Source: Rhodocyclaceae bacterium (lineage in GTDB: Bacteria; Pseudomonadota; Gammaproteobacteria; Burkholderiales; Rhodocyclaceae). From it: a DNA stretch of 64,000 nucleotides. Under the pieces are notes generated by a model that saw only the letters and a list, made by a program, of their open reading frames with translations, ran no database searches and was not told the DNA's origin. The stretch covers positions 62,001-126,000 of the forward strand of contig JAOAHQ010000007.1 in the NCBI GenBank assembly GCA_026415155.1, read 5' to 3'. Shown piece by piece: positions 29,449-50,378 of the stretch (its first letter is position 1; each line of letters begins with the position of its first letter). The position numbers and the translations under genes are program-made.

Positions 29449-30864
29449 ATGGGAAAAGACTCGGCCGCCCTCGTCTGGTTCCGCCGCGACCTGCGCGATT
29501 TCGACCACGCCGCCCTCGCCGCCGCGCTGCGCGGCCACGCGCGCGTCCATTGCGCCTTCGTCTTCGATCGCGACCTCCTCGCGCACCTCCCAAAAGATGA
29601 CCGGCGCGTCGATTTCATCTATCGCAGCCTGCGCGAACTCGAGCGGGCGCTTGCGGCGAAGGGCGGTGGGCTCATCATCCGCCATGGCCGCGCCGTCGAA
29701 GAGATTCCGCGCCTGGCGGCGCAATTGGGTGTGGCGGCCGTGCATGCCAATCGCGATCACGAGCCCTATGCGCGCTGGCGCGATGGCGAGGTCGCGGCGC
29801 GGCTCGCTGCCGACGGGCGGCGTTTTTTCGATCACAAGGATCAGACCATCTTCGAGCGCGACGAGCTCCTCACGCGCGCCGGCACGCCTTTCACGGTCTT
29901 CACGCCCTACGCGCGCGCCTGGCGCGAGAAATTGTCGCCGGAGGACCTTGCCGAGCACGAGTGCACCCCCCGGCCTGGGCAGCTCGTGCGCCCCGCGGCC
30001 GTCCCGCCCGCGCCGACTTTGGCGGAAATCGGCTTCAATTCGACGGACTTGCGGCTTCCCGCCGGTATGAGCGGCGGGGCGCGGCTTTTCGCGGATTTTT
30101 TGACGCGCATCGGGCGCTATCACCAAACGCGCGACTATCCGGCCATCAGGGGCGTCTCGTACCTTTCGCCGCACTTGCGCTTCGGCACGGTGTCGATCCG
30201 GCGTCTCGTCGCCGCGGCGCTCGAGCGCAGCCTCGCCGCTGACGGCCAGGGCGCCGCCGCTTGGCTCACCGAGCTCATCTGGCGCGAGTTCTACCAGATG
30301 ATCCTCTGGCAGCGTCCCGATGTCGTCGAGCACTGTTATCGGCGCGAATGCGATGCGCTCGTCTGGGACGACGCGCCCCACCTGTTCTCCGCCTGGTGCG
30401 AGGGGCGCACGGGCTACCCACTCGTCGATGCCGCGATGCGCCAGCTTGCGCAAACCGGCTGGATGCACAACCGGCTGCGCATGCTGACGGCCTCCTTTCT
30501 CACCAAGAACCTCGGCCTCGACTGGCGGCTGGGCGAAGCCCATTTCGCACGGCTTTTGCTCGACGTTGAGCTCGCCTCGAACAACGGCGGCTGGCAGTGG
30601 GCGGCGGGCACCGGCTGCGATGCCCAGCCGTGGTTTCGCATCTTCAATCCGGTGACGCAATCCGAAAAGTTCGACCCGCAGGGGCAATTCATCCGCCGCT
30701 ACCTGCCGGAGCTTGAAGGCGTGCCGGATGAGTTCATCCATGCGCCCTGGAAGATGCCGCGCCCGCCGGCAAACTACCCGCCGCCGATCGTCGATCATGC
30801 GGCAGCGCGGCAAAGGACGCTTGTGCGCTTTGGCAGGATCAAGTCTTCGTCAGCGCGGCGATGA
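29449..30864 (+). CDS. phr: Deoxyribodipyrimidine photolyase (class I)
   Basis: 471 residues from [19 protein letters not shown]. It splits cyclobutane pyrimidine dimers using light. An N-terminal antenna-binding domain (1-130) is joined by a linker to the FAD-binding helical domain, with [44 protein letters not shown] and [15 protein letters not shown]. The linker (about residues 184-191) reads AVPPAPTL and is encoded by a copy of the 23-bp repeat. It is divergent from yqgE with only 28 bp between, and its end overlaps the convergent chpA end by 26 bp. Confidence 0.95.
29998..30020 (+). repeat. Dispersed 23-bp repeat, inside phr
   Basis: 22 of 23 positions match (difference at 12). It is read in frame as AVPPAPTL in the interdomain linker of the photolyase. 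Confidence 0.85.
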
Positions 30865-33800
30865 GGCTCAAGAGCTCGCCTTCATCATAAGGCTTGCCGA
30901 GGTAGTGGCGCACGCCGAGTTCGGCGGCCACCTGGCGGTGCTTGTCGGCGATGCGCGAGGGGATCATGATCACGGGCAGCGCGGCGAAGCGTTGATCGGC
31001 ACGCAGATGCCGCACCAGCTCGAAGCCGTCCATCCTCGGCATTTCGATGTCGGCGAGGATCACCGCGGGGCGCTCGTGCTCGAGCCGTTCGAGCGCCTCG
31101 ACGCCATCCTTGGCGGTCTGCACCCGGTAGCCGGCGCGCTCCAGGAGGCGGCCGGTGATCTTGCGCACGGTGAGCGAATCATCGACGACAAGCACCCGCG
31201 GCGCTGCCGGCGCATCGGCCGCGGGGCGGGCGGGTAAAGTCGGCCGTGGCAAGACGGCGCGCTGCGCGAGGGCGACGGGGTTGACGATCAAGGCGACCCT
31301 CCCCTCGGGCAGCACCGTGGCGCCCGCAAGCCCCGGCACGCGGGATAGCTGCTTGCCGAGCGGCTTGACGACGACTTCCTGCTTTTGTGTGAGTGAGGCC
31401 GCCTCGAGCGCGATCGACGCGCCGCCGCTTTTGAGCAGGAGCTGCCAGCGCGGCAAGGCCTCCTCCTCGGGCAGGCCATAAAGGCGCGGCAGGCTGTGCC
31501 AGGGGTAATGGCGGCCATCGACCGTCAGCGCGCCGGCGGCCCGGCGCGCGGCGGCCTCCTCCTCGCCAAGCTCGCGCGCTTCCTCGACCATTGCGGCGGG
31601 AATCGCCCAGGGCCGGCCGGCGGCGGTGACGAGCATGACCGGCATCATCGCGAGCGTCATCGGCAGCACGATCCTAAAGCGCGCGCCGTGGCCGGCTTCT
31701 GAACTCACGTCGATGCGGCCGCCTAATTGGCCGACTTCGCTTTTGACGACGTCGAGGCCGATGCCGCGGCCGGCGATCTCGCTGACCGTCTCGGCGGTCG
31801 TAAAGCCTGGCCGGAAGATGAGCTCGGCAAGCTCCTCCTCGCTTGCCTCGGCGGCCACGTGCCCGCGCGCGAGGGCGCGGGCGCGGATCGCGGCGTAATC
31901 GAGGCCGGCGCCGTCGTCTTCAAGCGTCAGCACGATCTCGTTGTCGGCCTGGGCGATGGCAAGGCGGATCTCGCCCTGCCCGGGCTTGCCAACGGCGCGG
32001 CGCGCCTCGGGCGGCTCGATGCCGTGGGCGACGGCGTTTCTGAGCAGGTGTTCGAGCGGCCCGACGAGGCGTTCGAGCACGTGGCGGTCGAGGGCGGTCT
32101 CCTCGCCCTCGAGCTCGAGCTGGGCCTCGCGGCCGAGCTCCTTGGCCGTCTGGCGCACGACGCGGTGCAGGCGGTCGGCGATGGTGGCAAAGGGCAGCAT
32201 GCGGGCGCGCAACAGCGCATGCGAGAGCTCGCGGGTATGGCGCGACTGGCTCGCGAGCGCTTCGCCTGCCACCTCGCTTTGGCGGCGCAAGGCATGCTCG
32301 ACGGTCGCGACGTCGGCGACGCTTTCGGCCATCATCCGGGTGAGCTCCTGCAGGCGCGTGAAGCGATCGAGTTCGAGCGGATCGAAATCGCGCCGCGCAG
32401 CCTCGCCCGCCACAAGCTGCGCCGGCATGCTCGCCTCGGCGAGGATCTCGAATTCGCGCAGCTGCCCTTGCAGGCGGCTCACGTTCTCGGCGAGATCGAT
32501 GAGGGCGCCCTTGATGGCTTTCACGCTGCCTTCGAGGCGGCCGCGCGCACTGGCAAGCTCACCGGCCTCGTCGACGAGATGATCGATGAGCTCGGCGCGC
32601 ACGCGCAAGAGCACGGCCGGCGCCCCCTCCTGGGGAGGCGGCGCAGCGGCCGGTGCGCTTTGCTGTGCCGCCATGGCGGCCTGCTCGCGCACGCGGGCGA
32701 CGAGCTCATGGGCGCGGCCAAGCGCCGCCTTGAGGCCCTCGATCACGGCTTCCCTTTGACCGGCATCGGCAAGCGCCTCCTCGATGCGCGTCTCCATCGC
32801 GTGGGCGAGCTCGCCTACGCCCATCGCGCCGCACATGCGCGCATCGCCCTTGAAGGTGTGCAAAAGGCGCGCGAGGTGCTGGCCCAGCCCGGCCTCGCGG
32901 GGATTGGCGCGCCAGGCGGCGAGCGCCGCTTCGAGCTCGGCGAGCTTCTCATCGGCCTCTTCGAGAAAGAGCGCGGCCAAAGCCGGATCGATTTCGTCAT
33001 CCGGGCGCGCCATGCGCCGCTCGGCGAGCGGCGAAAGATCTGCCGCCGGCGCCGGCGCAAGCGCCGCCAGTGCAGCGATGAGCGCCGCTTCCTCGGCCGG
33101 TGCGCGCTGCTGCGCGATCGCGCCGATCATGCCTTCGAGCGCCCCGACGGCGCGCGCGAAGAGCATGCGGGTAGTCTCCAGAGGCGGGGTCTGGGCCAGC
33201 GCATGATGCACCAGCGCCTTCTCGAGCGCCTGAGCGAGTGAGTGCACCGGCGCGAAGCCGGCGCTTGCCGAAATGCCGGCGAGCGTGTGCGCGTCGCGGA
33301 TCAGCGCGCGCGAGGGAATGCCGGCCGGGCCGGTGAGCTCGCGGCGCAAGGCGGCGAGATGGCCTTGGGCTTCCTCGACATAGCGCCGCCAGAGCGTCGC
33401 CGGCAGCGCGCGCACGCCGATGCTGACCTGGGCGGGCGAGGCGGCGGCCGTCGCCGGACCCGGCGCGGGCGAGGCCGCGGGTGATTCGCCCAGGCGTGCT
33501 TGGCAGCGCGCAAGAAGCGCATCGGCCGCCGGCGCGGGCTCGCCCGCGGCGAGCGCCTCGACCCAGTCGGCGAACGCCTGGCGCGCCGCTTCGAGCAAGG
33601 CGAGCAGCTCGGCATCGGCCGGCGTGCGCCGCTCAAGCTGCCGGTTGAGCACGCGCTCGACGGCATGGGCGGCGTCGGCAAGTTCCGCCAGGCCCACCAT
33701 GCGGCCGCTGCCCTTGAGCGTATGAAAGTCGCGCCGGATCGCCAACAGCGCTTCATCGTCCTCCGGCGCTTGGGCAAGCCGCGGCTGGGTGGCGGCGAGG

Positions 33801-35542
33801 GTGGCGAGCACCTCGCGGGCTTCCTCGAGGAAGATGGCGATAAGCTCGTCCTCCTTCGTGGCGACGGGCCCGGCCGGGCTCGCTTCGCAACTCGGCGCTG
33901 GCAAGACGGCCTTTTCTGCGAGAAGCCCCTCGGCGCGCGCGAGCACGCTGCGCTCGGGCTGGCCGCGCCGCAGCGCATCGGCAAACTGAGCGAGGGCGGC
34001 AAGGTCTTCGGCAAGCTCAGCGAAATCTCCCGCCGCTCCCGATGCGAGCGCGGCCACGCGGCCGGCAAGCGAAGCCGCGAGCCGCGCGGCCGCCTCTTCC
34101 TCGATGAGCGTGAAGATCGAGGCAAGCTCTTTGAGCCTCGCCGCCGCCCCGGGCAAGGGTGCCGTGTCCGCGGGCGAGCGGAAGAAGGCCTCGAGCGCCG
34201 CTTCGAGCGCGGCAAGCTCGGCGCCGATTTCGCGGGCAAGCTCGCTCACAAGCCGCGCTTCGCGCCAGCGCCGGGGAGGCGGCGGGGTCAGATCCGCGCT
34301 GCCGGTGGCGCGGATCCGATCAAGCCGGCCGATCTGCGCCGAGACCTCGTCGGCGAGGAGTAAAGCCTCGGCTGGAGCGCGCGCCCCCTCGCCTTCGCTC
34401 GCCTCCTCGAAGAGCACCAAGGCGCTCGCCACTTCGAGCGCCATCGCATGATCGAAGCGCTCCGGCTTTTGACGCAGCCAAGCGGCAAAATCGACGATGG
34501 CGGCGGAAAGGCGCGCCAGTTCGGCGTCCTGGCTTTGCCGGGCGGCCTCGGCCAAGAGCTGGGTGACCTCGGCAAAGCGCATGAGCGCGATGGCGCTGCC
34601 TTGATCGAAGCGCTCCCATTCGGCCATCGCGGTCGCGAGCGGCGCGCGGCAGGCGGCACGCTGGGTCTCGCCACCGAGCGAAGCGGTGGGAATGAGTTCG
34701 GCAAGGCGATAGGCGGCGCGCACGCTCTTAATGAGCTCGCTGTGCGCCGGCGTCACGGCGAGGTCATAGAGCAGGCCCGCAAGCAGCGTCTCTGGCGGTG
34801 CCTCCGCGGTCCAGCGCCCTTCGGCGAGGCGCTCGCACTGCTCATCGAGGGCCGCCAGCAGCGCCTCGTCCGGCGCGGGCGACTTTGCCGCGAGGATCGC
34901 CTCGAACCAGGCTGCCGCGATCCACCACAGGGCGCGCTCGGCGCCTTCCCGAAAGCCTTGTTCGATCGCGGCGATGGCATTCTTCATCTCGACGAGGCCG
35001 CGCGCATCCTGGGCCCGCCATTTGGCGAGCCCGCGCGCAAAGCCAAGCCGCATGGCCTTCGCGCGCGCCGGCGTCAAGGGGGAAACCTCCGCCGTGCGGC
35101 GCGGCGGGCGCTGGGTCAGATCGGGAAAGAAGAGTTCTCGCGGCGAGGGCTCGGGCCTTCCGGCGGCGAGGAGGAGGGCGCGATAGGCCGGGAAGAGCTT
35201 GAGCGCCTGGTCGGGGTGGCCCGCCATGAGCTCGTCGAGATAGCGGCGCAAGGCGGCCATCGCGGCGCCGGCGGCCGCCGCCACCGCGACGACCTCGCGC
35301 GCATCCTCAGAAGCGGCGAGCTCGGCAAGCCGCGCTTCGATGGCCGCGCACAGGCGGCTTGCCCCTTTCACCCCGACGATGGCAAGCGCGCCGCTTGCCT
35401 GGTGCACAAATTCGCGCGCTTCGGCCAGCGGCCTGGCTTCCGCAGGCGAAGCGGCATGACGCGCGAGCGCCTCGCTCGCCTGTTCGAGCGCGAGATCGAT
35501 CTCGTCTTTGACCCAGGCGAGCGTGCCGGTATCGGGCGCCAT
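30839..35542 (-). CDS. chpA: ChpA/PilL, hybrid CheA-type kinase of the type IV pilus chemosensory system
   Basis: 1567 residues. The N-terminal half is Ala/Glu-rich and helical, with degenerate Hpt repeats. Clear Hpt histidines occur in DFHTLKGSGRMVG (about 610) and LLHTFKGDARMCG (about 890), and a variant in DAHTLAGISASAG (about 750). CheA dimerisation and HATPase domains follow (LVDEAGELASARGRLEG, HLLRNAVAHGIEPPEARR, GRGIGLDVVKSEV), then a CheW-like domain. A receiver domain closes the protein, with phospho-Asp in ILADIEMPRMDGFELV. It controls twitching and cAMP output in related bacteria. Two linkers contain degenerate copies of the 23-bp repeat. Confidence 0.95.
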   Translation of the reverse strand: MAPDTGTLAWVKDEIDLALEQASEALARHAASPAEARPLAEAREFVHQASGALAIVGVKGASRLCAAIEARLAELAASEDAREVVAVAAAAGAAMAALRRYLDELMAGHPDQALKLFPAYRALLLAAGRPEPSPRELFFPDLTQRPPRRTAEVSPLTPARAKAMRLGFARGLAKWRAQDARGLVEMKNAIAAIEQGFREGAERALWWIAAAWFEAILAAKSPAPDEALLAALDEQCERLAEGRWTAEAPPETLLAGLLYDLAVTPAHSELIKSVRAAYRLAELIPTASLGGETQRAACRAPLATAMAEWERFDQGSAIALMRFAEVTQLLAEAARQSQDAELARLSAAIVDFAAWLRQKPERFDHAMALEVASALVLFEEASEGEGARAPAEALLLADEVSAQIGRLDRIRATGSADLTPPPPRRWREARLVSELAREIGAELAALEAALEAFFRSPADTAPLPGAAARLKELASIFTLIEEEAAARLAASLAGRVAALASGAAGDFAELAEDLAALAQFADALRRGQPERSVLARAEGLLAEKAVLPAPSCEASPAGPVATKEDELIAIFLEEAREVLATLAATQPRLAQAPEDDEALLAIRRDFHTLKGSGRMVGLAELADAAHAVERVLNRQLERRTPADAELLALLEAARQAFADWVEALAAGEPAPAADALLARCQARLGESPAASPAPGPATAAASPAQVSIGVRALPATLWRRYVEEAQGHLAALRRELTGPAGIPSRALIRDAHTLAGISASAGFAPVHSLAQALEKALVHHALAQTPPLETTRMLFARAVGALEGMIGAIAQQRAPAEEAALIAALAALAPAPAADLSPLAERRMARPDDEIDPALAALFLEEADEKLAELEAALAAWRANPREAGLGQHLARLLHTFKGDARMCGAMGVGELAHAMETRIEEALADAGQREAVIEGLKAALGRAHELVARVREQAAMAAQQSAPAAAPPPQEGAPAVLLRVRAELIDHLVDEAGELASARGRLEGSVKAIKGALIDLAENVSRLQGQLREFEILAEASMPAQLVAGEAARRDFDPLELDRFTRLQELTRMMAESVADVATVEHALRRQSEVAGEALASQSRHTRELSHALLRARMLPFATIADRLHRVVRQTAKELGREAQLELEGEETALDRHVLERLVGPLEHLLRNAVAHGIEPPEARRAVGKPGQGEIRLAIAQADNEIVLTLEDDGAGLDYAAIRARALARGHVAAEASEEELAELIFRPGFTTAETVSEIAGRGIGLDVVKSEVGQLGGRIDVSSEAGHGARFRIVLPMTLAMMPVMLVTAAGRPWAIPAAMVEEARELGEEEAAARRAAGALTVDGRHYPWHSLPRLYGLPEEEALPRWQLLLKSGGASIALEAASLTQKQEVVVKPLGKQLSRVPGLAGATVLPEGRVALIVNPVALAQRAVLPRPTLPARPAADAPAAPRVLVVDDSLTVRKITGRLLERAGYRVQTAKDGVEALERLEHERPAVILADIEMPRMDGFELVRHLRADQRFAALPVIMIPSRIADKHRQVAAELGVRHYLGKPYDEGELLSLIAALTKT
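31236..31258 (-). repeat. Dispersed 23-bp repeat (degenerate), inside chpA
   Basis: 19 of 23 positions match (differences at 7, 8, 13 and 14). It is read as AVLPRPTL in the linker between the CheW-like and receiver domains. Confidence 0.55.
33888..33910 (-). repeat. Dispersed 23-bp repeat (degenerate), inside chpA
   Basis: 19 of 23 positions match (differences at 7, 8, 20 and 23). It is read as AVLPAPSC in a linker just before an Hpt region. Confidence 0.5.
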
Positions 35543-35549
35543 CGTCGGC

Positions 35550-37265
35550 TCAGACCTTGAAGCCGGCCACCGAGCCTTTGAGCTCGCGCGTGAGATTGGC
35601 CATCTGGCCGACCGAGTTGGCGGTCATGCGCGTGCCGGCCGAGGTCTCTTCGGTGATCTTGAGGATGCCCTGCATCGCCTGGGCGATGGCGCGGGCATTC
35701 GCGACCTGCGTGCGCGTATCGGCGGCGATGGCTTCGATCAAGGCGGCGAGACGGTTGGTGACGGCGCGGATTTCGGCGAGCGCCTGGCCGGCCGCATCCG
35801 AGCGGCGCGCGCCCTCGACGACGCCTTTCGTCGAGTGCTCCATCGCGGCGACGGCATCGTGGGTGTCGGCCTGGATGGTCTTGACGATCGCGGCGATCTC
35901 GCGGGTGGCTTCGGCGGAACGCTCGGCGAGCCGCTGCACTTCCTCGGCGACGATGGCGAAGCCGCGCCCGGCGGCGCCGGCGCTCGCGGCCTGGATCGCC
36001 GCATTGACGGCGAGCACGTTGGTCTGCTCGGTGATGTCGGAGATGAGCTCGACGATCTCGCCGATCTCCTGCGAGGACTCGCCGAGCCGCTTGATGCGCT
36101 TGGCGGTTTCCTGGATCTGGCCGCGGATGTCGTTCATGCCGGCGATCGCCGCCGCCACGGCGGCATCGCCCTGGTCGGCGGCGGAAAGCGAAGAGCGCGC
36201 GACCTGGGCGGTCTCGTCGGCGCGCTCGGAGACGCCTTGCAGCGAATCGGCGAGCGCGAGCACCTGGGCGCTTGCATCGCGGATCTCGTGCGATTGCCGC
36301 TCCGAGGCGGCAAGCAGCGTGGCGGAGATGTCCTGCGCCTCCTGGGCGGCGAGATCGACGCGCAAGGCGGCCTCGTTGATGCGTTTCACGAGCACGGCGA
36401 GCTCTTCGATGGCGTAATTGACCGCCTCGGCGATCGCGCCGGTGATGTCCTCGGTGACCGTCGCGCGCGCCGTGAGATCGCCGCCCGCCAGATCGCCAAG
36501 CTCGTTCATGAGGCGCAAGATGGCCGCCTGCGTCGCATCCTTGGCGGCCTCGGCAAGGCGGCGCTGGCGTTCGGCCTCGGCCTGGCGCGCGTTGGCGTCA
36601 TCGTTCATGACCTTGAACATCAGCACCAAGAGGCCGAGCGCGAGCGAGCCGAGCACCGTGGCGATGCCGGTGCGCAGCTCGCGGCCTTCGAGGGCGCGCG
36701 CATAGTCTTGCGAAAGGCGCACGATGGCGCCGTCGAGCGCGGCCGTGTCCTTGCCGAGCGCAGCGATCGCCTCGGCAAGAAGCGTGGGAAGCTGGGCGGC
36801 GGCAAAGGCTTCCCGCTGGTCTGCGTGGGCGAGGAGAAGGGCGATGTGGCGGTCATGCCCATTCCACAGCCCGCGCAAGGCTTCGAGCGCGCCGCGCGCG
36901 GCCTCGGGCGTCGGCGGCACGTTGCTGCCGCCGTAATTGCCGCCCACGGTGAGCAGATGGAGCGTGGCGTTGAAGCGCTCGCGCGCCGCGGCAAGCTCCC
37001 TGAAGCCGCCCGCTTCGCCTTGTCTGGCCAAGAGGCTTGCCTTGGCGATCTGCTGGGCGAGCGTGCGCATCTCACCCGTGGCGGAAAGCCAGGCGGCGGT
37101 ATGGCTTGCGTTTCGGTTGTCGACGAAGACGATGTAGGTGGCGATGGTCAGAAACAGCAAGAAGACTGCGCCGAGAATCTGCAGTTCGAGGCCAAGCCGG
37201 CGGCGCACGCCGCCGGCGGGAGAGGGGGCGGTGCCGAAACGGGGGAATTTGAGTGCGAAGGCCAT
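35550..37265 (-). CDS. pilJ: PilJ, methyl-accepting chemoreceptor of the Chp system
   Basis: 571 residues. The first membrane helix (about 27-48) and second helix (about 205-225) enclose a periplasmic PilJ-type sensor domain. A HAMP-like segment and the cytoplasmic signalling hairpin follow, with tip sequence ISDITEQTNVLAVNAAIQAASAGAAGRGFAIVA. It feeds signals to ChpA via PilI. It sits between pilI and chpA with gaps of 3 and 7 bp. Confidence 0.96.
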   Translation of the reverse strand: MAFALKFPRFGTAPSPAGGVRRRLGLELQILGAVFLLFLTIATYIVFVDNRNASHTAAWLSATGEMRTLAQQIAKASLLARQGEAGGFRELAAARERFNATLHLLTVGGNYGGSNVPPTPEAARGALEALRGLWNGHDRHIALLLAHADQREAFAAAQLPTLLAEAIAALGKDTAALDGAIVRLSQDYARALEGRELRTGIATVLGSLALGLLVLMFKVMNDDANARQAEAERQRRLAEAAKDATQAAILRLMNELGDLAGGDLTARATVTEDITGAIAEAVNYAIEELAVLVKRINEAALRVDLAAQEAQDISATLLAASERQSHEIRDASAQVLALADSLQGVSERADETAQVARSSLSAADQGDAAVAAAIAGMNDIRGQIQETAKRIKRLGESSQEIGEIVELISDITEQTNVLAVNAAIQAASAGAAGRGFAIVAEEVQRLAERSAEATREIAAIVKTIQADTHDAVAAMEHSTKGVVEGARRSDAAGQALAEIRAVTNRLAALIEAIAADTRTQVANARAIAQAMQGILKITEETSAGTRMTANSVGQMANLTRELKGSVAGFKV

Positions 37266-37268
37266 GGG

Positions 37269-37796
37269 TCAGCTCTCCGGCAAGGCGGCATCGAGAAAGA
37301 CGGGGTCGGCGAGGAGCTGCTCTACTTCGAGGCGGCGCCAGAGGCCGCCCGAGGCGTCGGTATAGGCGGGGCCGCACCAGTCGGCCTGGCAAAGGGCGGG
37401 TGCGCCTTCGGCCTCGGCAAAACCATCGGCGCGTTTGACGCCCAAGAGGCGGGAGACGAGCAAGGCGACGCGATAGCCCGGCTCCGTACCGATGCAGATG
37501 AGCCGTGCGCTTATCCCACGCGGCGCCGGCGCGAGCCCGCAAAAGCGCGCGAAGTCGACGACGCCGGCAAGCTCGCCATGCACGTTGGCAAGCCCTGCGA
37601 ACCAGTCGCGCGTCAAAGGCACCGGCGTGAGCTCGGGCACGGGCAGCACCTCGCCGGCGGCAGACAGATCGACGAGCCAGCGCTCCCCCCCTGCCTCGAA
37701 GCCGAGCAGCGCCGGCACGCCGCCGCCGGCCTCGGCGGCCGCCAGCCGCGCGGCGATCGCTTCCTGATAGGCGGCAAGATCGATGCGTTGCGCCAT
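37269..37796 (-). CDS. pilI: PilI, CheW-like adaptor
   Basis: 175 residues forming one CheW domain (VPALLGFEAGGERWLVDLSAAGEVLPVP, WFAGLANVHGELAGVVDFARF). It couples PilJ to ChpA. Its ATG is immediately preceded by the TAG stop of the pilH remnant. Confidence 0.93.
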   Translation of the reverse strand: MAQRIDLAAYQEAIAARLAAAEAGGGVPALLGFEAGGERWLVDLSAAGEVLPVPELTPVPLTRDWFAGLANVHGELAGVVDFARFCGLAPAPRGISARLICIGTEPGYRVALLVSRLLGVKRADGFAEAEGAPALCQADWCGPAYTDASGGLWRRLEVEQLLADPVFLDAALPES

Positions 37797-37844
37797 CTAA
37801 CCGAACGGCGAATCATCGACGACGAGGATGGGGCGGATCGGCAT
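37797..37844 (-). pseudogene. pilH: pilH remnant (15 codons)
   Basis: In the position where pilH normally lies (between pilG and pilI) there is a short frame MPIRPILVVDDSPFG followed by TAG. The first 13 codons are the canonical start of a response regulator (beta-1 and the acidic DDS), as in PilH. Everything from there to the end is missing, and the stop directly abuts the pilI ATG. It reads as a deletion scar that keeps the operon intact. A short leader peptide is the alternative but less likely, given the recognisable receiver sequence. Confidence 0.75.
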
Positions 37845-37848
37845 GGCC

Positions 37849-38247
37849 TCAACTCGACTGGGCTTGCGCGTAAGCGGCGAGCGCCGCATGGAGCGTTTCG
37901 CGCGTGAAGGGCTTGGTCAGATGGGCGGAGGAGCCGGCAAGCCGTCCGCGCGCGCGGTCGAACAGCCCGTCCTGCGAGGAGAGCATGATGACTGGAGTGT
38001 GCGCAAAGTGCGGGTTTTTCTTGATCAGCGCGCAGGTCTGGTAGCCATCGAGCCGCGGCATGAGGATGTCGCAGAAGACCACATCGGGCGCATGATCGGC
38101 GATCTTCGCCAAGGCCGCGAAGCCGTCTTCGGCCAGGAGCACCGTATGGCCGGCTTCGCTGAGGAAGAGCTCGGCGCTCTTGCGGATGGTGTTCGAATCG
38201 TCGATCACCATCACCTTGAGAGGGCGCGGCAGGGCGGCTTCGCTCAT
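37849..38247 (-). CDS. pilG: PilG, receiver-only response regulator of the Chp system
   Basis: 132 residues from MSEAALPRPLKVM. This is a single receiver domain with LKVMVIDDSNTIRKSAE, the phospho-Asp in VVFCDILMPRLDGYQTCALI, the Ser/Thr in VIMLSSQDGLFDRARGR and the Lys in LTKPF. The YQTCALIKKN and DGLFDRA segments are diagnostic of PilG rather than PilH. It promotes pilus extension and cAMP production in Pseudomonas. The long track ORF start is antisense shadow of thiD. The rubredoxin gene often found upstream in relatives is absent. Confidence 0.92.
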   Translation of the reverse strand: MSEAALPRPLKVMVIDDSNTIRKSAELFLSEAGHTVLLAEDGFAALAKIADHAPDVVFCDILMPRLDGYQTCALIKKNPHFAHTPVIMLSSQDGLFDRARGRLAGSSAHLTKPFTRETLHAALAAYAQAQSS

Positions 38248-41183: not shown

Positions 41184-41522
41184 ATGAAGGCCTTGACGCC
41201 CGCAGCCGCTTGGCTTGTCCTGCTGCTCGCCGGCCTGTGCGAGATCGGCTGGGCGATCGGCCTCAAATACACCGAGGACTTCACGCGCTTTTGGCCGAGC
41301 TTTTGGACCATCGTCGCCATGATCGCCTCGATCGTGCTGCTCGCCTGGTCGCTCAAGGCCCTGCCGGTGGGCACCGCCTATGCAGTATGGACCGGCATCG
41401 GCGCGGTCGGCACGGCCCTCCTCGGCATTGTGCTCTTCAATGAATCGCGCGAGGCGCTGCGGCTCGTCTCGATAGGCCTCATCGTCGTCGGCATCCTCGG
41501 CCTGAAACTGGTGACGAAATGA
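41184..41522 (+). CDS. SugE/Gdx-type small multidrug-resistance family exporter
   Basis: 112 residues with four membrane helices and the essential Glu in helix 1 ([14 protein letters not shown]). The [19 protein letters not shown] motif is typical of the SugE/Gdx branch that exports guanidinium or quaternary ammonium ions. No guanidine riboswitch is visible upstream, where only 22 bp separate it from hemL. It overlaps the next gene by 4 bp. Confidence 0.88.
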
Positions 41523-42669
41523 AATCCGCTTCCCGGCTGTTCCTCCTCATCCTCCTCGTTGCCGTGCTGGGCTTGGCCCTCTGGTGGCTGTCGCGCCCCA
41601 AGCCGATCCCGGTGCGTCTCTACGAAGTCGCCGCCGGCCGGGTCGAAGCGACGCTTGCCAACACGCGCGCCGGCACGGTGGAAGCCTGTCAGCGCACGAA
41701 GCTGTCGACGATCGCCGGTGGCCGCATCGAGCTGCTCGCCGTCAAGGAAGGGGATCGCGTCGAGAAAGGCCAAGTGCTGATGCGCCTGTGGCATGAAGAC
41801 CTCGCCGCGCGCCGCGCCGTGGCCGAGGCGCAACTTGCCACGGCGCAAAGCCGCCGTGCGGAGATCTGCACTGTCGCGGAAAACGCCGAGCGCGAAGCCT
41901 CCCGCCAGGAAGCGCTCGCCGCCCAGGGCTTCATCTCGGCCTCGCGCGCCGAGGCCGCGCGCACCGAGGCGAAGGCGCGCCGCGCCGCCTGCGAAAGCGC
42001 CCAGCGCGACGTCGTCACGGCAAGCCGGCAGCTCGCTGCCGCGAGCGCCGATCTCGCCCGCACCGTCATCACGGCGCCCTTTGCCGGCACGGTGGCGAAG
42101 ATCGTCGGCGAAGTCGGCGAGTATTCGACGCCTTCGCCGCCCGGCGTGCCGACGCCGCCGGCGATCGACCTCATCGATGCCTCCTGCCTCTACGTGAGGG
42201 CGCCGCTCGATGAGCTCGATGCGCCGAAACTCTCTCCCGGCCAGGCCGTGAAGATCCGCCTCGATGCCTATCCGGGCCGCACTTTCTCCGGCCGCGTGCG
42301 GCGCATCGCGCCCTACGTCACGGCGGTGGAAAAGCAGGCGCGCACCGTCGATGTCGAGGTCGACTTCGTCAATCCCGCCGAGGCCAAGGGGCTTTTGGTC
42401 GGCTATAGCGCCGATGTCGAGATCCTGCTCGATGCCAAGGAGGGCGTGCTGCGCGTGCCGACCGCCGCCTTGCAGGAGGGCCAACGGGTGCTCGTCGTCG
42501 GCGCCGATGGGAGACTGGCCGCGCGCCAGCTCACGCTGGGGCTGGCCAACTGGGAATGGAGCGAAGTGCTCGCCGGCCTTTCCGCCGGCGAGCGCATCGT
42601 GCTTTCGCTCGAGAAGGAAGGCGTGAAGCCCGGCGCCTTCGTCGTCGAGGAAAAGCCCACGGCGCAGTG

Positions 42670-42670
<1 letters not shown>
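41519..42670 (+). CDS. Periplasmic adaptor (membrane fusion) protein of an ABC exporter, MacA-like
   Basis: 383 residues. One N-terminal membrane helix (7-24) is followed by barrel-sandwich/lipoyl halves ([27 protein letters not shown] and [16 protein letters not shown]) around a coiled-coil hairpin (about 90-165). A beta-barrel with the typical [28 protein letters not shown] follows. It probably links the two FtsX-like permeases encoded downstream to an outer-membrane channel. No TolC-like gene is in the window. It overlaps the ATPase gene (TGATG). Confidence 0.9.
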
Positions 42671-43347
<677 letters not shown>

Positions 43348-43445: not shown

Positions 43446-43670
43446 ATGCCGCAGGTCAATATCCATCACGCCAAGACGCATCTGTCGGAACTCATCGCGG
43501 CTGCCGAGCGCGGCGAAGAGGTCATCATCGCGCGCGCCAACCGTCCGGCGGTGCGCCTCGTGCCGGTCGCGGCCGAGCGGCGCGCCCGCACACCCGGTCT
43601 TCATCGCGGCGCGCTTTGCATGGCCGAGGACTTCGACGCGCCCTTGCCGGAAGATTTCTGGAATTCTTAG
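43446..43670 (+). CDS. Antitoxin, Phd/YefM-type VapB
   Basis: 74 residues with the Phd/YefM dimerisation and DNA-binding pattern (VNIHHAKTHLSELIAAAERGEEVIIARANRPAVRLVPV). The C-terminal tail that neutralises the toxin is DFDAPLPEDFWNS. It lies 13 bp before the PIN toxin gene. The upstream AT-rich stretch (ttggctaatgatgttagcc at about 43411) contains a GGCTAA/TTAGCC inverted repeat. That is a plausible autoregulatory operator and promoter. Confidence 0.9.
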   Translation: MPQVNIHHAKTHLSELIAAAERGEEVIIARANRPAVRLVPVAAERRARTPGLHRGALCMAEDFDAPLPEDFWNS

Positions 43671-43683
43671 CTCCGCCGCGGCC

Positions 43684-44016
43684 GTGGGCCTGCTGCTCGA
43701 TACGCATGCCTTCATCTGGTGGGCGAGCGACCCCGAGAAACTCCCGGCAGCGCTCTTGCAACGCTTGATGGGCGAGGAGCCGTTGCTGCTTAGCATCGCC
43801 AGCCTGTGGGAGATGCAGATCAAGATCGGGCTCGGCAAGCTTGCGCTGCACCAGCCCTTGCGCCGCGTCGTCGAGGAACAACAAGCCGCCAATGGCCTTC
43901 GCCTGCTGCCCTTCGACCGCCTGCTGATCGCCCAGGCGCATTGCGACGAGCTGATCCTCGTCAGCCGCGATCAGGCTTTCGACGCCTACCCGATCCGCCG
44001 TTTTTGGCACGGATGA
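43684..44016 (+). CDS. Toxin, PIN-domain VapC
   Basis: 110 residues using GTG as start (GLLLDTHAFIWWA), since no ATG lies in the right place and antitoxin-toxin spacing is then 13 bp. The acidic residues are in LLLDTHAF, IASLWEMQIK, LPFDRLLIAQA and VSRDQAFDAY. The HxDPFDR motif of this subgroup is reduced to LPFDR. It is probably a metal-dependent RNase acting on tRNA or rRNA. It is followed 12 bp later by the ABC permease. Confidence 0.88.
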   Translation: MGLLLDTHAFIWWASDPEKLPAALLQRLMGEEPLLLSIASLWEMQIKIGLGKLALHQPLRRVVEEQQAANGLRLLPFDRLLIAQAHCDELILVSRDQAFDAYPIRRFWHG

Positions 44017-44028
44017 AGCGCTACGGCG

Positions 44029-45231
44029 ATGAAACCGGCCGACACCTTGCGTTTCGCGCTCCAGGCCGCCGCAGGCTATCCCTTGCGCACCTTCCTCATG
44101 GTGCTGGCGATGGCGATCGGCGTCGCCGCCGTCGTCGTGCTCACCGCCCTGGGCGATGGCGCGCGCCGCTATGTCGTCGATGAGTTTGCCGCGCTCGGCA
44201 GCAACCTCGTCATCGTCCTGCCCGGCCGTTCCGAGACCGGCGGCTTCAGCCCCATCAATGCGATCACGAACACGCCGCGCGACCTGACCGTCGAGGATGG
44301 CGAAGCGCTCGCGCGCGCGCCGGCGGTGCGGCGCGTCGCGCCGATCGTCGTCGGCACGTCCGAAGCCGCCTTTGGCGGCGCCTTGCGCGATGTCACCCTC
44401 GTCGGCACGACGGCAGAATACTTCGCGATCCGCGGCCTGAAACTCGCCCAGGGGCGGCCCTTGCCCGCCGAGGCGCCACACGCCGCCGTCGCCGTGATCG
44501 GCGCGAAGCTCCAGGCCGAGCTCTTCGGCAGCACTCCGGCCGTCGGCCAGGTGCTGCGCATCGGCGATCGGCGCTTCCGCGTCATCGGCGTGCTCGGCCA
44601 GACCGGCCAGGGGCTCGGCATGAACGCCGACGAAATCGTGATCTTGCCGGTGGCACAGGCGCAGGCGATGTTCAACACGAATACGCTGTTTCGCCTCCTC
44701 ATCGAGGCGAAGAGCCGCGCGGCGATTCCAGCGGCCAAGGCCCAGGCGACCGAGCTCATCAAGGCGCGCCACGATGGCGAGGAGGATTTCACGGTGATCA
44801 CCCAGGATGCCGTGCTCGCCACCTTCGATCGCATCCTCTCGACGCTCACCTATGGCGTGGCCGGCATCGCCGCGATCAGCTTGGGCGTCGCCGGCATCCT
44901 CGTCATGAACGTGATGCTCGTCGCAGTGACCCAGCGCACTGCCGAGATTGGGCTTTTGAAGGCGCTCGGCGCCGAAGGCACGGCGATTCGTAACGCCTTT
45001 CTCGCCGAGGCGGCGCTCTTGTCGGCTACCGGCGCGCTCGCTGGTTATCTGCTCGGCGAGCTCGGCGCCTGGGGCCTGCGCAGCGCACTGCCGGCGCTGC
45101 CGGCCTTTCCGCCCGCCTGGGCGGTGGCGGCCGCGTTTCTCACCGCGCTCGCCACGGGGCTCCTCTTCGGTGTCCTGCCGGCGCGCCGCGCCGCGCGCCT
45201 CGATCCGGTCGCGGCCTTGATGAGGCACTAG
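44029..45231 (+). CDS. ABC exporter permease, FtsX/MacB-like (1 of 2)
   Basis: 400 residues. An N-terminal helix (about 18-42), a large periplasmic MacB-PCD domain (about 43-270) and three C-terminal helices with the FtsX signature (VTQRTAEIGLLKALGAEGTAIRNAFLAEA). It works with the ATPase encoded before the VapBC module. Having two tandem, different permeases suggests a heterodimeric exporter. The substrate is unknown. Confidence 0.9.
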   Translation: MKPADTLRFALQAAAGYPLRTFLMVLAMAIGVAAVVVLTALGDGARRYVVDEFAALGSNLVIVLPGRSETGGFSPINAITNTPRDLTVEDGEALARAPAVRRVAPIVVGTSEAAFGGALRDVTLVGTTAEYFAIRGLKLAQGRPLPAEAPHAAVAVIGAKLQAELFGSTPAVGQVLRIGDRRFRVIGVLGQTGQGLGMNADEIVILPVAQAQAMFNTNTLFRLLIEAKSRAAIPAAKAQATELIKARHDGEEDFTVITQDAVLATFDRILSTLTYGVAGIAAISLGVAGILVMNVMLVAVTQRTAEIGLLKALGAEGTAIRNAFLAEAALLSATGALAGYLLGELGAWGLRSALPALPAFPPAWAVAAAFLTALATGLLFGVLPARRAARLDPVAALMRH

Positions 45232-45235
45232 GCGC

Positions 45236-46435
45236 ATGCTGGCCGGCGACTTGTTCACCCTTGCTTCACGAGCACTCTTTGCCCACCGGCTCAGAAGCTT
45301 TCTGACGCTCCTGGGCATCGCGGTCGGCATTGCCGCCGTGATCCTGCTCACGAGCATCGGCGAAGGAGTGCATCGTTTCGTGCTCGAGGAATTCACGCAA
45401 TTCGGCACCCACGTCATCGAAATCGCGCCCGGCAAAACCCAGGCAAGCAAAGGACCAGGGGGCCTCCAGACGACGGTGCGGCTCCTCACCCTCGAGGATG
45501 CCGCAGCGCTTGCCCGCGTGCCCGGGGTCGTCGCCGTCTCGCCGAATGTCTGGGGCAATTCCGAAGTCTCGGCCAATGGCCGCGTGCGGCGCACCACGGT
45601 GCAGGGCGTGGGCCCCGCCTTGCCCGAGATCTTCCGCCTTTCCGTCGCGGCGGGCCATTTCCTGCCCGCTGAGCCCGCCGAGCATGCACGCCCCTTCGCC
45701 GTGCTGGGGGCGAAGCTTGCGCGCGAGCTCTTCGGCAGCGAGCCGGCGCTCGGGGCACGCCTGCGCATCGCCGGCCGGCAGTTCCGCGTCATCGGCGTGA
45801 TGGCCGAGAAGGGCCAGTTCCTCGGCATGGACCTCGATGACACGGTCTATATCCCGACCGCGCAGGCGCTCGCCCTCTATAACCGCGAGGGGCTCATGCG
45901 CATCAATCTCATCTACCGTCCAGGACTTGAGGCCGCCGATGTCGCGGCGGCCGTCAAGTCGGCGCTCATCGGACGGCATGGCCGCGAGGATTTCACGCTG
46001 ACGACCCAGGAAGACATGCTGAAGACGCTTTCGAAGATCCTCGACGTGCTCACCGCCGCGGTCGGCGCCTTGGGCGGCATCTCGCTCGTCGTCGGCGCGG
46101 TCGGCATCGTCACGATCATGACGATCGCGGTGGCCGAGCGCACCCATGAGATCGGGCTTTTGAAGGCGCTCGGCGCACGCGAAGCCACGATCCTCGGCCT
46201 CTTCCTCGCCGAGGCAGTGGCGCTCTCGGCGCTCGGCGGGGTCTTGGGCCTCGCCTTGGGCATCGGCATCGCGCAGCTTGCCCAATTCGCGCTGCCGGCG
46301 CTGCCGGTGCACACGCCTTTTTCCTTCGTGCTGCTCGCCGAAGCGGTGGCGATCGCCATTGGGCTCGCGGCCGGCGTGTTGCCGGCGCGGCGCGCCGCGC
46401 GGCTCGATCCCATCGAAGCCTTGCGCAGCGAGTGA
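45236..46435 (+). CDS. ABC exporter permease, FtsX/MacB-like (2 of 2)
   Basis: 399 residues with the same architecture as the preceding permease, which is only moderately similar (AVAERTHEIGLLKALGAREATILGLFLAEA; C-terminal PARRAARLDPIEALRSE). The gap is 4 bp. It completes the adaptor-ATPase-permease-permease set. Confidence 0.9.
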   Translation: MLAGDLFTLASRALFAHRLRSFLTLLGIAVGIAAVILLTSIGEGVHRFVLEEFTQFGTHVIEIAPGKTQASKGPGGLQTTVRLLTLEDAAALARVPGVVAVSPNVWGNSEVSANGRVRRTTVQGVGPALPEIFRLSVAAGHFLPAEPAEHARPFAVLGAKLARELFGSEPALGARLRIAGRQFRVIGVMAEKGQFLGMDLDDTVYIPTAQALALYNREGLMRINLIYRPGLEAADVAAAVKSALIGRHGREDFTLTTQEDMLKTLSKILDVLTAAVGALGGISLVVGAVGIVTIMTIAVAERTHEIGLLKALGAREATILGLFLAEAVALSALGGVLGLALGIGIAQLAQFALPALPVHTPFSFVLLAEAVAIAIGLAAGVLPARRAARLDPIEALRSE

Positions 46436-47956: not shown

Positions 47957-49561
47957 CTAGCCGAGGCCTTGTGGCTGCACGGCGCAGACGCGCAGCGCCT
48001 CCCGCTTGCCCTTGACCCGCAGGGCAAACGGCTTGCCGAAGCGGAAGGCGCCGGGCTGCCTGGCCTCGACCGTCTCGCGCAGCGTCTCGCTCACCAAGAT
48101 GCCGCCTGGCGTGCAGCCCTTCTCGATGCGCGAGGCGGTATTGACGACATCGCCGATCGCTGTCCAGTCGAGCCGCTCGGCCGTGCCGACGTTGCCGATG
48201 ACGACCTCGCCCCAGTGGATGCCGATGCGCAGCTGCAAGGCTTGCCGACCCGAATCGGCGCGCAGGGCATTGATGTCGGCCGCGTGGCTTTGCATGTCAA
48301 GCGCCGCGCGCACGGCATCGGCCGGATCGTCGAAGAGCGCCATCAGGCTATCGCCCATGAACTTGTCGATGGCGCCGCGGTAGCGTTTCACCGGGGCCGC
48401 CACGCGGCGCAAGATGGTGTTGAGCGTCTCGATGACCGATTCGCTGCCACCATGCCGTTCGACCCAGGCCGTAAAGCCGACGATGTCGCAAAAGAGCACC
48501 GCCACCGGCCGTTCCTCGTTGGCGAGACTCGTGCGGCCGAGTCGCACGGCCTCGCGCGCCTTCTGCTCGACGAGCTGCGGCACATAGTTTTTCGTGATGT
48601 TATGCACGCGTACCTCGCCGAGGATGGTGCCTTCGGCCAGCTGCACTTCGCCACTGGCCTCCGCGACGACCTGCCAGAGGGAATAGATCGCACCGTCGGC
48701 GGCGCGAAAGCCGCTGACGTTGAAAAGGATCGTCAGCCCCACCGAGCCGGGCACATAAAGACGGATGCGATAGTTCTCGAAGACGCCCTCCTCGTTTTCG
48801 AGCGCGAGCCCCCAGACGACGTCGTCGAAGAAGGCCGGCGGAATCGCCTGGGGCAGGGCCGCGAGCGCATCGTCGCGATCGTCGAGCCTTAATCGAGCGA
48901 GCATCGCCGGCGAGGCGGCTTGCACTTCACCGGCCGGGGAAAAGACGATCACGCCATAGCCGAGCTGGTCGCCGATCTCGCCGATCGCGGCAAGGCTTGC
49001 CGCCGGATCGAGGAGGCGCGGCGGGGGCGCAGTCTGCGCGCCCTTCGATTCGCGCAAGACGAGTGTGCTTGCCGTTCCCCTTACTTCGACATCGAGCGCA
49101 AAACCCAGCGCGTTCAGCAGCCGCGCATGGCGCTCAAGCTCCAGCGCCGGCGCAAATGGCAGTTCAAGGATGCAGAGCGTGCCCGTAGCATCGGCTGGAA
49201 ATCGCAAGGCGATCTCCCAGCCCGCCTGGCGGCAGGCATGGGTGAGATTGCGCGTGCCGTGCTCGCCGAGTTCGGCGCGATAGAGCGCCTCGATCTCCCC
49301 GTCGCTCTCACCGGCGGGCAGACCGACTTCGGTGGCCAGGATGCGGCGGAAGATCTCGAAATGCATCTGCCGCATCGCCTCGTCGAGCAGATGGTGTAGC
49401 ACGCGCACCAAGGGTGCCATACGGCTGGCATGCCCGCGTGAAGCACAGGCGGCCGCAAGGCGCGCCCGCGCCTCCTGCCACGTCGCATGGTTCAGCTCGA
49501 CGCATGGGAGGGCCTCGCTCGTTTCCGACGCCTCAGAGGTTGGCACAGAGCTGATAGGCAT
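47957..49561 (-). CDS. Class III nucleotidyl cyclase with N-terminal sensor region
   Basis: 534 residues from MPISSVPTSEASE; the longer track ORF is shadow of the HDOD gene. The C-terminal cyclase domain has both metal-binding Asp residues (VLFCDIVGFTAWVE and KFMGDSLMALFDD) and WTAIGDVVNTASRIE. The N-terminal 200 residues are helical; a PAS-like region (about 230-330) follows. It is probably an adenylate cyclase. It starts within the end of the HDOD gene (29-bp overlap), so the two form a signalling pair. Confidence 0.87.
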   Translation of the reverse strand: MPISSVPTSEASETSEALPCVELNHATWQEARARLAAACASRGHASRMAPLVRVLHHLLDEAMRQMHFEIFRRILATEVGLPAGESDGEIEALYRAELGEHGTRNLTHACRQAGWEIALRFPADATGTLCILELPFAPALELERHARLLNALGFALDVEVRGTASTLVLRESKGAQTAPPPRLLDPAASLAAIGEIGDQLGYGVIVFSPAGEVQAASPAMLARLRLDDRDDALAALPQAIPPAFFDDVVWGLALENEEGVFENYRIRLYVPGSVGLTILFNVSGFRAADGAIYSLWQVVAEASGEVQLAEGTILGEVRVHNITKNYVPQLVEQKAREAVRLGRTSLANEERPVAVLFCDIVGFTAWVERHGGSESVIETLNTILRRVAAPVKRYRGAIDKFMGDSLMALFDDPADAVRAALDMQSHAADINALRADSGRQALQLRIGIHWGEVVIGNVGTAERLDWTAIGDVVNTASRIEKGCTPGGILVSETLRETVEARQPGAFRFGKPFALRVKGKREALRVCAVQPQGLG

Positions 49562-50378
49562 CGTCTTCCTTGAGGCGCTCGACGAATTCCTCGGCGAGCC
49601 AGGTCTCACAGAGCGATTCATCGCGCGCGAAGCGGAGCAAGGCGGCCTTGCGCATTTCCGGATCGTTCGCGGCCGCGCCGCCGATGCCGGCGCTCTCGAG
49701 CAGGCAGTTGGCCGCTGCGAGACTCGTCCAGACCCGATCCTCGCTTCGCTCCGGGCAAGGGCGTGCAAGATCCTCTCCCAGGTAGTCGGCGAAGCGCTCG
49801 GGTAGATTCCATTGCTTGACGGCCTCGCGGCCCACTTCGCAACGGTCGCAGCCGAATACCTTGCGTTCGGCCGAGAGCGGCTCATGGCCTCGTTCGAGGA
49901 TGAGCGACAACACCTCGCGATAGCGCGCCGGATCGTGGGTGAAGAGAAGCACGCTGCCCATGTCGTGCATGAGACCGGCGACGAAGGCCTCATCCTTCTC
50001 GCGGCGGCTGCCGAGCGCCTCGCAGATCGCGCGCGCCGCGATCGCCGCAAGCAGCGAGTGCTGCCAGATGTGCAGGCGGAACGCCGGATCGCGCGAGCGC
50101 GCGAACAGCGAGCGGCTGAAGGCGAGCAGGGCAAGCGAGCGCACCACGTTGAAGCCGAGCAGGCTGATCGCGACGGGGATCGTGGCAATCTGCCGGCCGC
50201 GGCTGTAAAGCGGCGAATTGACGACGCGCAGCACGAGCGCCGCTACCCCCTGGTCGGAGCGCACGAAGCCATCGAGCTCGCGAAAACAGTCATTGGCCTC
50301 CGGGTCGAGCCGGATGATGCCGGAGAGCACGTCGGCCTGCACCGGGATGTTCCGGTAGTCGATCGCCTTGGGGTTCAT
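49533..50378 (-). CDS. HDOD-domain signalling protein
   Basis: 281 residues forming one HDOD domain (LVLRVVNSPLYSRGRQIATIPVAISLLGF, LHIWQHSLLAAIAARAICEALG, FVAGLMHDMGSVLLF). This is an HD-like fold retaining LMHDMG but probably not catalytic. Such proteins modulate two-component or second-messenger pathways. It is encoded directly before the cyclase and overlaps it. Confidence 0.88.
   Translation of the reverse strand: MNPKAIDYRNIPVQADVLSGIIRLDPEANDCFRELDGFVRSDQGVAALVLRVVNSPLYSRGRQIATIPVAISLLGFNVVRSLALLAFSRSLFARSRDPAFRLHIWQHSLLAAIAARAICEALGSRREKDEAFVAGLMHDMGSVLLFTHDPARYREVLSLILERGHEPLSAERKVFGCDRCEVGREAVKQWNLPERFADYLGEDLARPCPERSEDRVWTSLAAANCLLESAGIGGAAANDPEMRKAALLRFARDESLCETWLAEEFVERLKEDDAYQLCANL

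Follow-up and report, generated by a model that had tools for sequence, protein, structure and literature searches.

In the window (the whole 64,000-nucleotide stretch of Rhodocyclaceae DNA analyzed here), the pilH gene of the chp operon is reduced to a 15-codon scar, PilH is absent from the rest of the assembly, and the remaining operon is intact. We consider it very probable that the scar records a genuine, natural and lineage-specific in-frame deletion of pilH, an ordinary gene loss as a molecular event, after which translation is predicted to be relayed to pilI and the output of the Chp system to pass through PilG only. Two parallel losses occur in other genera of the same family. Overall, this is a rare but recurrent gene loss that leads to a single-output variant of the known Chp system.

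The scar lies between pilG and pilI at positions 37844-37797 on the minus strand and translates to MPIRPILVVDDSPFG* (15 codons followed by TAG). Its codons, 5' to 3' on that strand, are ATG CCG ATC CGC CCC ATC CTC GTC GTC GAT GAT TCG CCG TTC GGT TAG, in which GTC GAT GAT TCG encodes the invariant V-D-D-S of PilH. Its ATG is 4 nt downstream of the pilG TGA (at 37849). At the other end, no nucleotide separates its TAG from the pilI ATG at 37796 (a 0-nt spacer); in the loci read from relatives, the spacer before pilI is mostly several to tens of nucleotides. The PilH protein alignment pairs scar residues 1-13 with PilH residues 1-13, and 10-11 of these 13 are identical to PilH of the four closest relatives. 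At the DNA level, the scar head matches its sisters at 30-33 of 39 nt. The last two residues, FG (codons 14-15, ahead of the stop), are placed by the aligner at the PilH C-terminus, where relatives end in ..IAALG or ..IAAFG. The frame is not there by chance: 10-11 residues of its head match, V-D-D-S is retained, and each of the 29 other loci examined has a full pilH in this position. Comprising 13 PilH codons plus two, the scar does not encode a full receiver domain with its phosphorylatable Asp and conserved Thr/Lys.

Judged by alignment, the simplest reading is that an in-frame deletion took out approximately 106 internal codons of pilH (~318 bp). Its endpoints are inferred from relatives rather than from the immediate ancestor, and more than a simple deletion may have reshaped the 3' side, because the 0-nt spacer before pilI is unlike the spacers of relatives. 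A search for recombination repeats found that the two pilH ends in sister genomes share words of at most 5 bp, which is uninformative on recombination. A preliminary description of this DNA had proposed that pilH is cut to a 15-codon remnant between pilG and pilI, with a TAG abutting the pilI ATG so that reading into pilI is kept; the head's match to PilH, the full gene in the 29 other loci, and the junction itself all bear this out.

A search with the PilI protein covered the window's genome and 60 relatives, and the 30 best loci, comprising that of the window and 29 others, were then examined. Full-length pilH of 115-122 codons stands between pilG and pilI in 29 of the 29 other loci, and the stub is found in the window only. 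The comparison with close relatives that the preliminary description had called for is likewise clear: the four nearest congeners (G001, G005, G011, and G014), whose PilI is 63-65% identical, all carry full pilH. The Chp system is itself patchy within the window's genus, where some half of the congeners lack a true PilI (either no match or a weak CheW-type match; G002, G003, G004, G006, G010, G012, G013, G016, G017, and G018). Four of these (G002, G004, G006, and G017) have neither PilI nor PilH, and G003 encodes a PilH-like protein (3e-53) but no PilI.

Across a survey of 250 family genomes (cut-offs of E<=1e-15 for PilI and E<=1e-38 for PilH), PilI was present in 211 and PilH in 218; PilH was present in 208 of the 211 PilI-positive genomes, the only exceptions being the window's genome, G073, and G156. 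No stub is left in G073 or G156. Their pilH has vanished completely and the pilG stop overlaps the pilI start (ATGA), with junctions that read ..GCGCAATGAAAACT.. in G073 and ..GCCAGCATGACGCAG.. in G156. Both retain intact pilJ and chpA (with its receiver) behind pilI, and neither encodes PilH elsewhere in its genome at E<=1e-38. The G156 genome consists of 2 contigs and is 97% complete; since its congener G109 keeps both PilH and PilI, the loss falls within that genus. Because the three losses occur in three genera with different junctions, they are best read as independent events, and pilH has probably been lost about three times. In each case, the pilI start sits directly at the stop of the upstream translated frame, as would be expected if only those deletions that spare pilI-chpA expression survive. 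A DNA pattern for pilI starts lacked specificity when applied to 399 family genomes and was not used further. We found no report of natural pilH loss or of selected pilH mutations in the open-access literature.

The other operon members, all on the minus strand, are unbroken in the window. PilG (37849..38247) is an intact CheY-like response regulator of 132 aa (Pfam Response_reg, 3.8e-25; 81-82% identity to congeners). PilI (37269..37796), a CheW-like adaptor of 175 aa (Pfam CheW, 1.1e-15; congener identity as above), starts directly after the scar stop. PilJ (35550..37265) is an intact pilus chemoreceptor of 571 aa with 73-75% identity to congeners, and its Pfam matches (PilJ, 4.6e-11; MCPsignal, 4.9e-36) are those of the receptor type that marks a Chp system. 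The kinase ChpA (30839..35542; 1567 aa) contains four Hpt stretches, HATPase, CheW, and a C-terminal receiver by Pfam, the same architecture as in the PilH-bearing congener G011; a CheW-like PilI together with a multi-Hpt ChpA that has a kinase core and C-terminal receiver is likewise characteristic of Chp. Relative-rate counts against the sisters G011 and G001, with five outgroups, revealed no significant acceleration of PilG, PilI, PilJ, or ChpA. For ChpA, the single nominal departure (p about 0.05) points to slower change on the window's side. Faster PilG evolution, considered on the basis of identities to outgroups of 72-75% in the window versus 77-80%, was not significant (best p = 0.09).

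Type IV pilus machinery is also present in the genome, which encodes PilO, five long T2SSE ATPases, and three PilT-like ATPases; two of the latter are adjacent on contig C51 and form a PilT/PilU-like pair. Given unbroken genes, no significant acceleration, and the presence of pilus genes, the Chp system looks maintained rather than decaying, and a working, PilG-only Chp system is the likely outcome. We would class it as a variant that functions like a Chp system but stands outside the canonical two-regulator form, because it has an intact PilG but, in place of PilH, a 15-codon remnant and no other copy in the assembly.

That absence was established by a profile search of the 2.38-Mb assembly (70 contigs, 83.5% complete). 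The genome encodes more than 50 receiver stretches, and all 67 candidates were scored; the best match reached 92 bits, against 210-230 bits for true PilH, and sits in a 539-codon frame. The best receiver other than PilG at a contig end (C65, L001), the one strong candidate in such a position, was considered as a displaced PilH and rejected, as this 170-aa protein has 40% identity, extra C-terminal sequence, and a score of 91 bits. The search for pilH elsewhere that the preliminary description had recommended thus yielded no full-length alternative copy in the 83.5%-complete assembly. A PilH encoded on unassembled sequence is possible, but it would not restore the pilH of this operon copy.

One alternative is an artefact: a chimeric read, minority strain variant, or assembly error could have produced the scar in a draft or metagenome-derived genome while the population keeps intact pilH. 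The draft state and incompleteness of the assembly, the one assembly of the species considered, leave room for this, as does the restriction of the loss to one genome within the genus. We nevertheless regard it as very unlikely. Assemblers join on words far longer than the <=5 bp shared by the pilH ends in sisters, so the scar junction should exist in reads; the assembly contains no further copy or fragment of pilH; the flanking frames, up to 1567 codons long, are unbroken; and pilH was lost at the same place in two other genera, one of them represented by a 2-contig genome. If the deletion is real, PilH function might have been assumed by another protein, either the receiver of ChpA or any of the genome's numerous other receivers. 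ChpA does keep its C-terminal receiver, which Kuhn et al. propose as a possible phosphate sink for PilG (PMC10519157), and more than 50 receiver stretches are available. But the ChpA of PilH-bearing relatives has the same receiver, which is therefore ancestral rather than a replacement; no other receiver in the genome scores like PilH, and the operon contains no extra one. Takeover is unlikely on these grounds, and replacement by the ChpA receiver, one of two readings offered in the preliminary description, finds no specific support. The other, that PilH loss is tolerated, is preferable, since in two further genera of the family pilH has disappeared from this position with pilI tightly downstream, and since the remainder of the window's operon is intact.

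Selection may maintain the 15-codon frame as a translational relay, a mini-ORF that serves solely to couple pilI to pilG, instead of the frame persisting as a passive remnant. Its start, frame, and stop are all intact, pilI has no evident Shine-Dalgarno sequence ahead of its ATG, which the TAG abuts, and pilI is likewise coupled directly to pilG through the ATGA overlap in G073 and G156. However, 39 retained bases are too few to reveal selection, and the identity of the head to its sisters also fits recent loss. A selected relay, which is compatible with the preferred reading of a tolerated in-frame deletion, is a tentative addition to it. More doubtful is the idea that PilH loss is recurrent and adaptive in the family and linked to compact ChpA and PilJ, which would define a PilG-only Chp class in which the signal is ended by the ChpA receiver alone. 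The ChpA open frames of the three pilH-less genomes (1594, 1496, and 1484 codons) are the shortest unbroken ones in a 161-genome survey. By ATG-started length, however, PilH-bearing congeners are equally short (1565 and 1571 aa), and G184 has PilH with a ChpA of 1426 aa. In light of these counter-examples, the link between PilH loss and short ChpA is only suggestive and is left as a lead. In two relatives, chpA is divided into two frames, in G061 (locus L068; 1230 + 732 aa in a 6-contig genome) and in G189 (locus L059; 416 + 1185 aa), which may reflect either a split gene or a sequencing error.

Under the preferred reading of a tolerated in-frame deletion, the loss of ~318 bp would have left the start codon, 13 codons, and the last two codons and stop of pilH. 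Translation of pilG is predicted to be followed by that of a non-functional 15-residue stub, from which ribosomes would pass to the abutting pilI ATG, so that pilI-pilJ-chpA expression is kept. PilJ-PilI-ChpA would then phosphorylate PilG in a single-output pathway, and phosphorylated PilG would be drained only by its own hydrolysis and the ChpA receiver. Expectations for the phenotype come from laboratory mutants. In Pseudomonas aeruginosa, PilH antagonizes PilG by lowering its phosphorylation; a pilH mutant twitches forward without reversal, with PilG more polar and more phosphorylated, and PilH is not inherently required for reversal when PilG is missing (PMC10519157). Xylella fastidiosa without pilH shows less twitching and higher natural competence (PMC9956873), and Acinetobacter baumannii without pilH transforms normally (PMC8088505). 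By analogy with the Pseudomonas mutant, cells of the present species should have more polarized pili, longer forward twitching, and fewer reversals; persistent polarity should go together with a retained pilus function such as DNA uptake. An effect on cAMP would likewise be an extrapolation from Pseudomonas.

Relative to the Pil-Chp system of P. aeruginosa (pilG-pilH-pilI-pilJ-pilK-chpA), the window shares gene order and the domains of PilG, PilI, PilJ, and ChpA, including a ChpA with several Hpt domains and a C-terminal receiver. It differs in that pilH is a 15-codon stub, pilK is missing between pilJ and chpA (7 nt apart), and ChpA is shorter (1567 aa). The laboratory pilH deletion mutants of P. 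aeruginosa, X. fastidiosa, and A. baumannii cited above resemble the window in having lost PilH alone with the rest of Chp kept, whereas the loss here is natural and extends to three or more genera within a single family. Also similar are the chp operons of G073 and G156, in which pilG is followed at once by pilI and then by intact pilJ and chpA; they have the ATGA overlap and no stub, unlike the window. Because at least two related genera lost pilH independently, the loss appears real and tolerated, yet it does not amount to a new kind of system. PilH is nearly universal beside PilG in the family (208/211 PilI-bearing genomes), and its role as a PilG antagonist is known mainly from Pseudomonas. 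Natural, independent losses with an otherwise intact pathway offer a ready way to ask if a second regulator is truly needed for reversing twitching and for ending the signal.

Finally, the window harbors several features outside the chp operon. An ABC exporter operon includes an HlyD-type adaptor (41519-42670), an ATPase gene (42556-43347), and two tandem MacB_PCD/FtsX permease genes (44029-45231 and 45236-46435, plus strand). Between the ATPase gene and the MacB-like permease genes (44029-46435) sits an antitoxin/toxin-like pair (43446-44016), comprised of a Phd/YefM antitoxin-like gene (43446-43670, plus strand) and a PIN-domain toxin-like frame. An HDOD-domain protein is encoded at 49533-50378 on the minus strand. 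Downstream of that gene, a frame at about 47957-49500, which by eye resembles a class III adenylate/guanylate cyclase domain, is a possible source of cyclic nucleotide.
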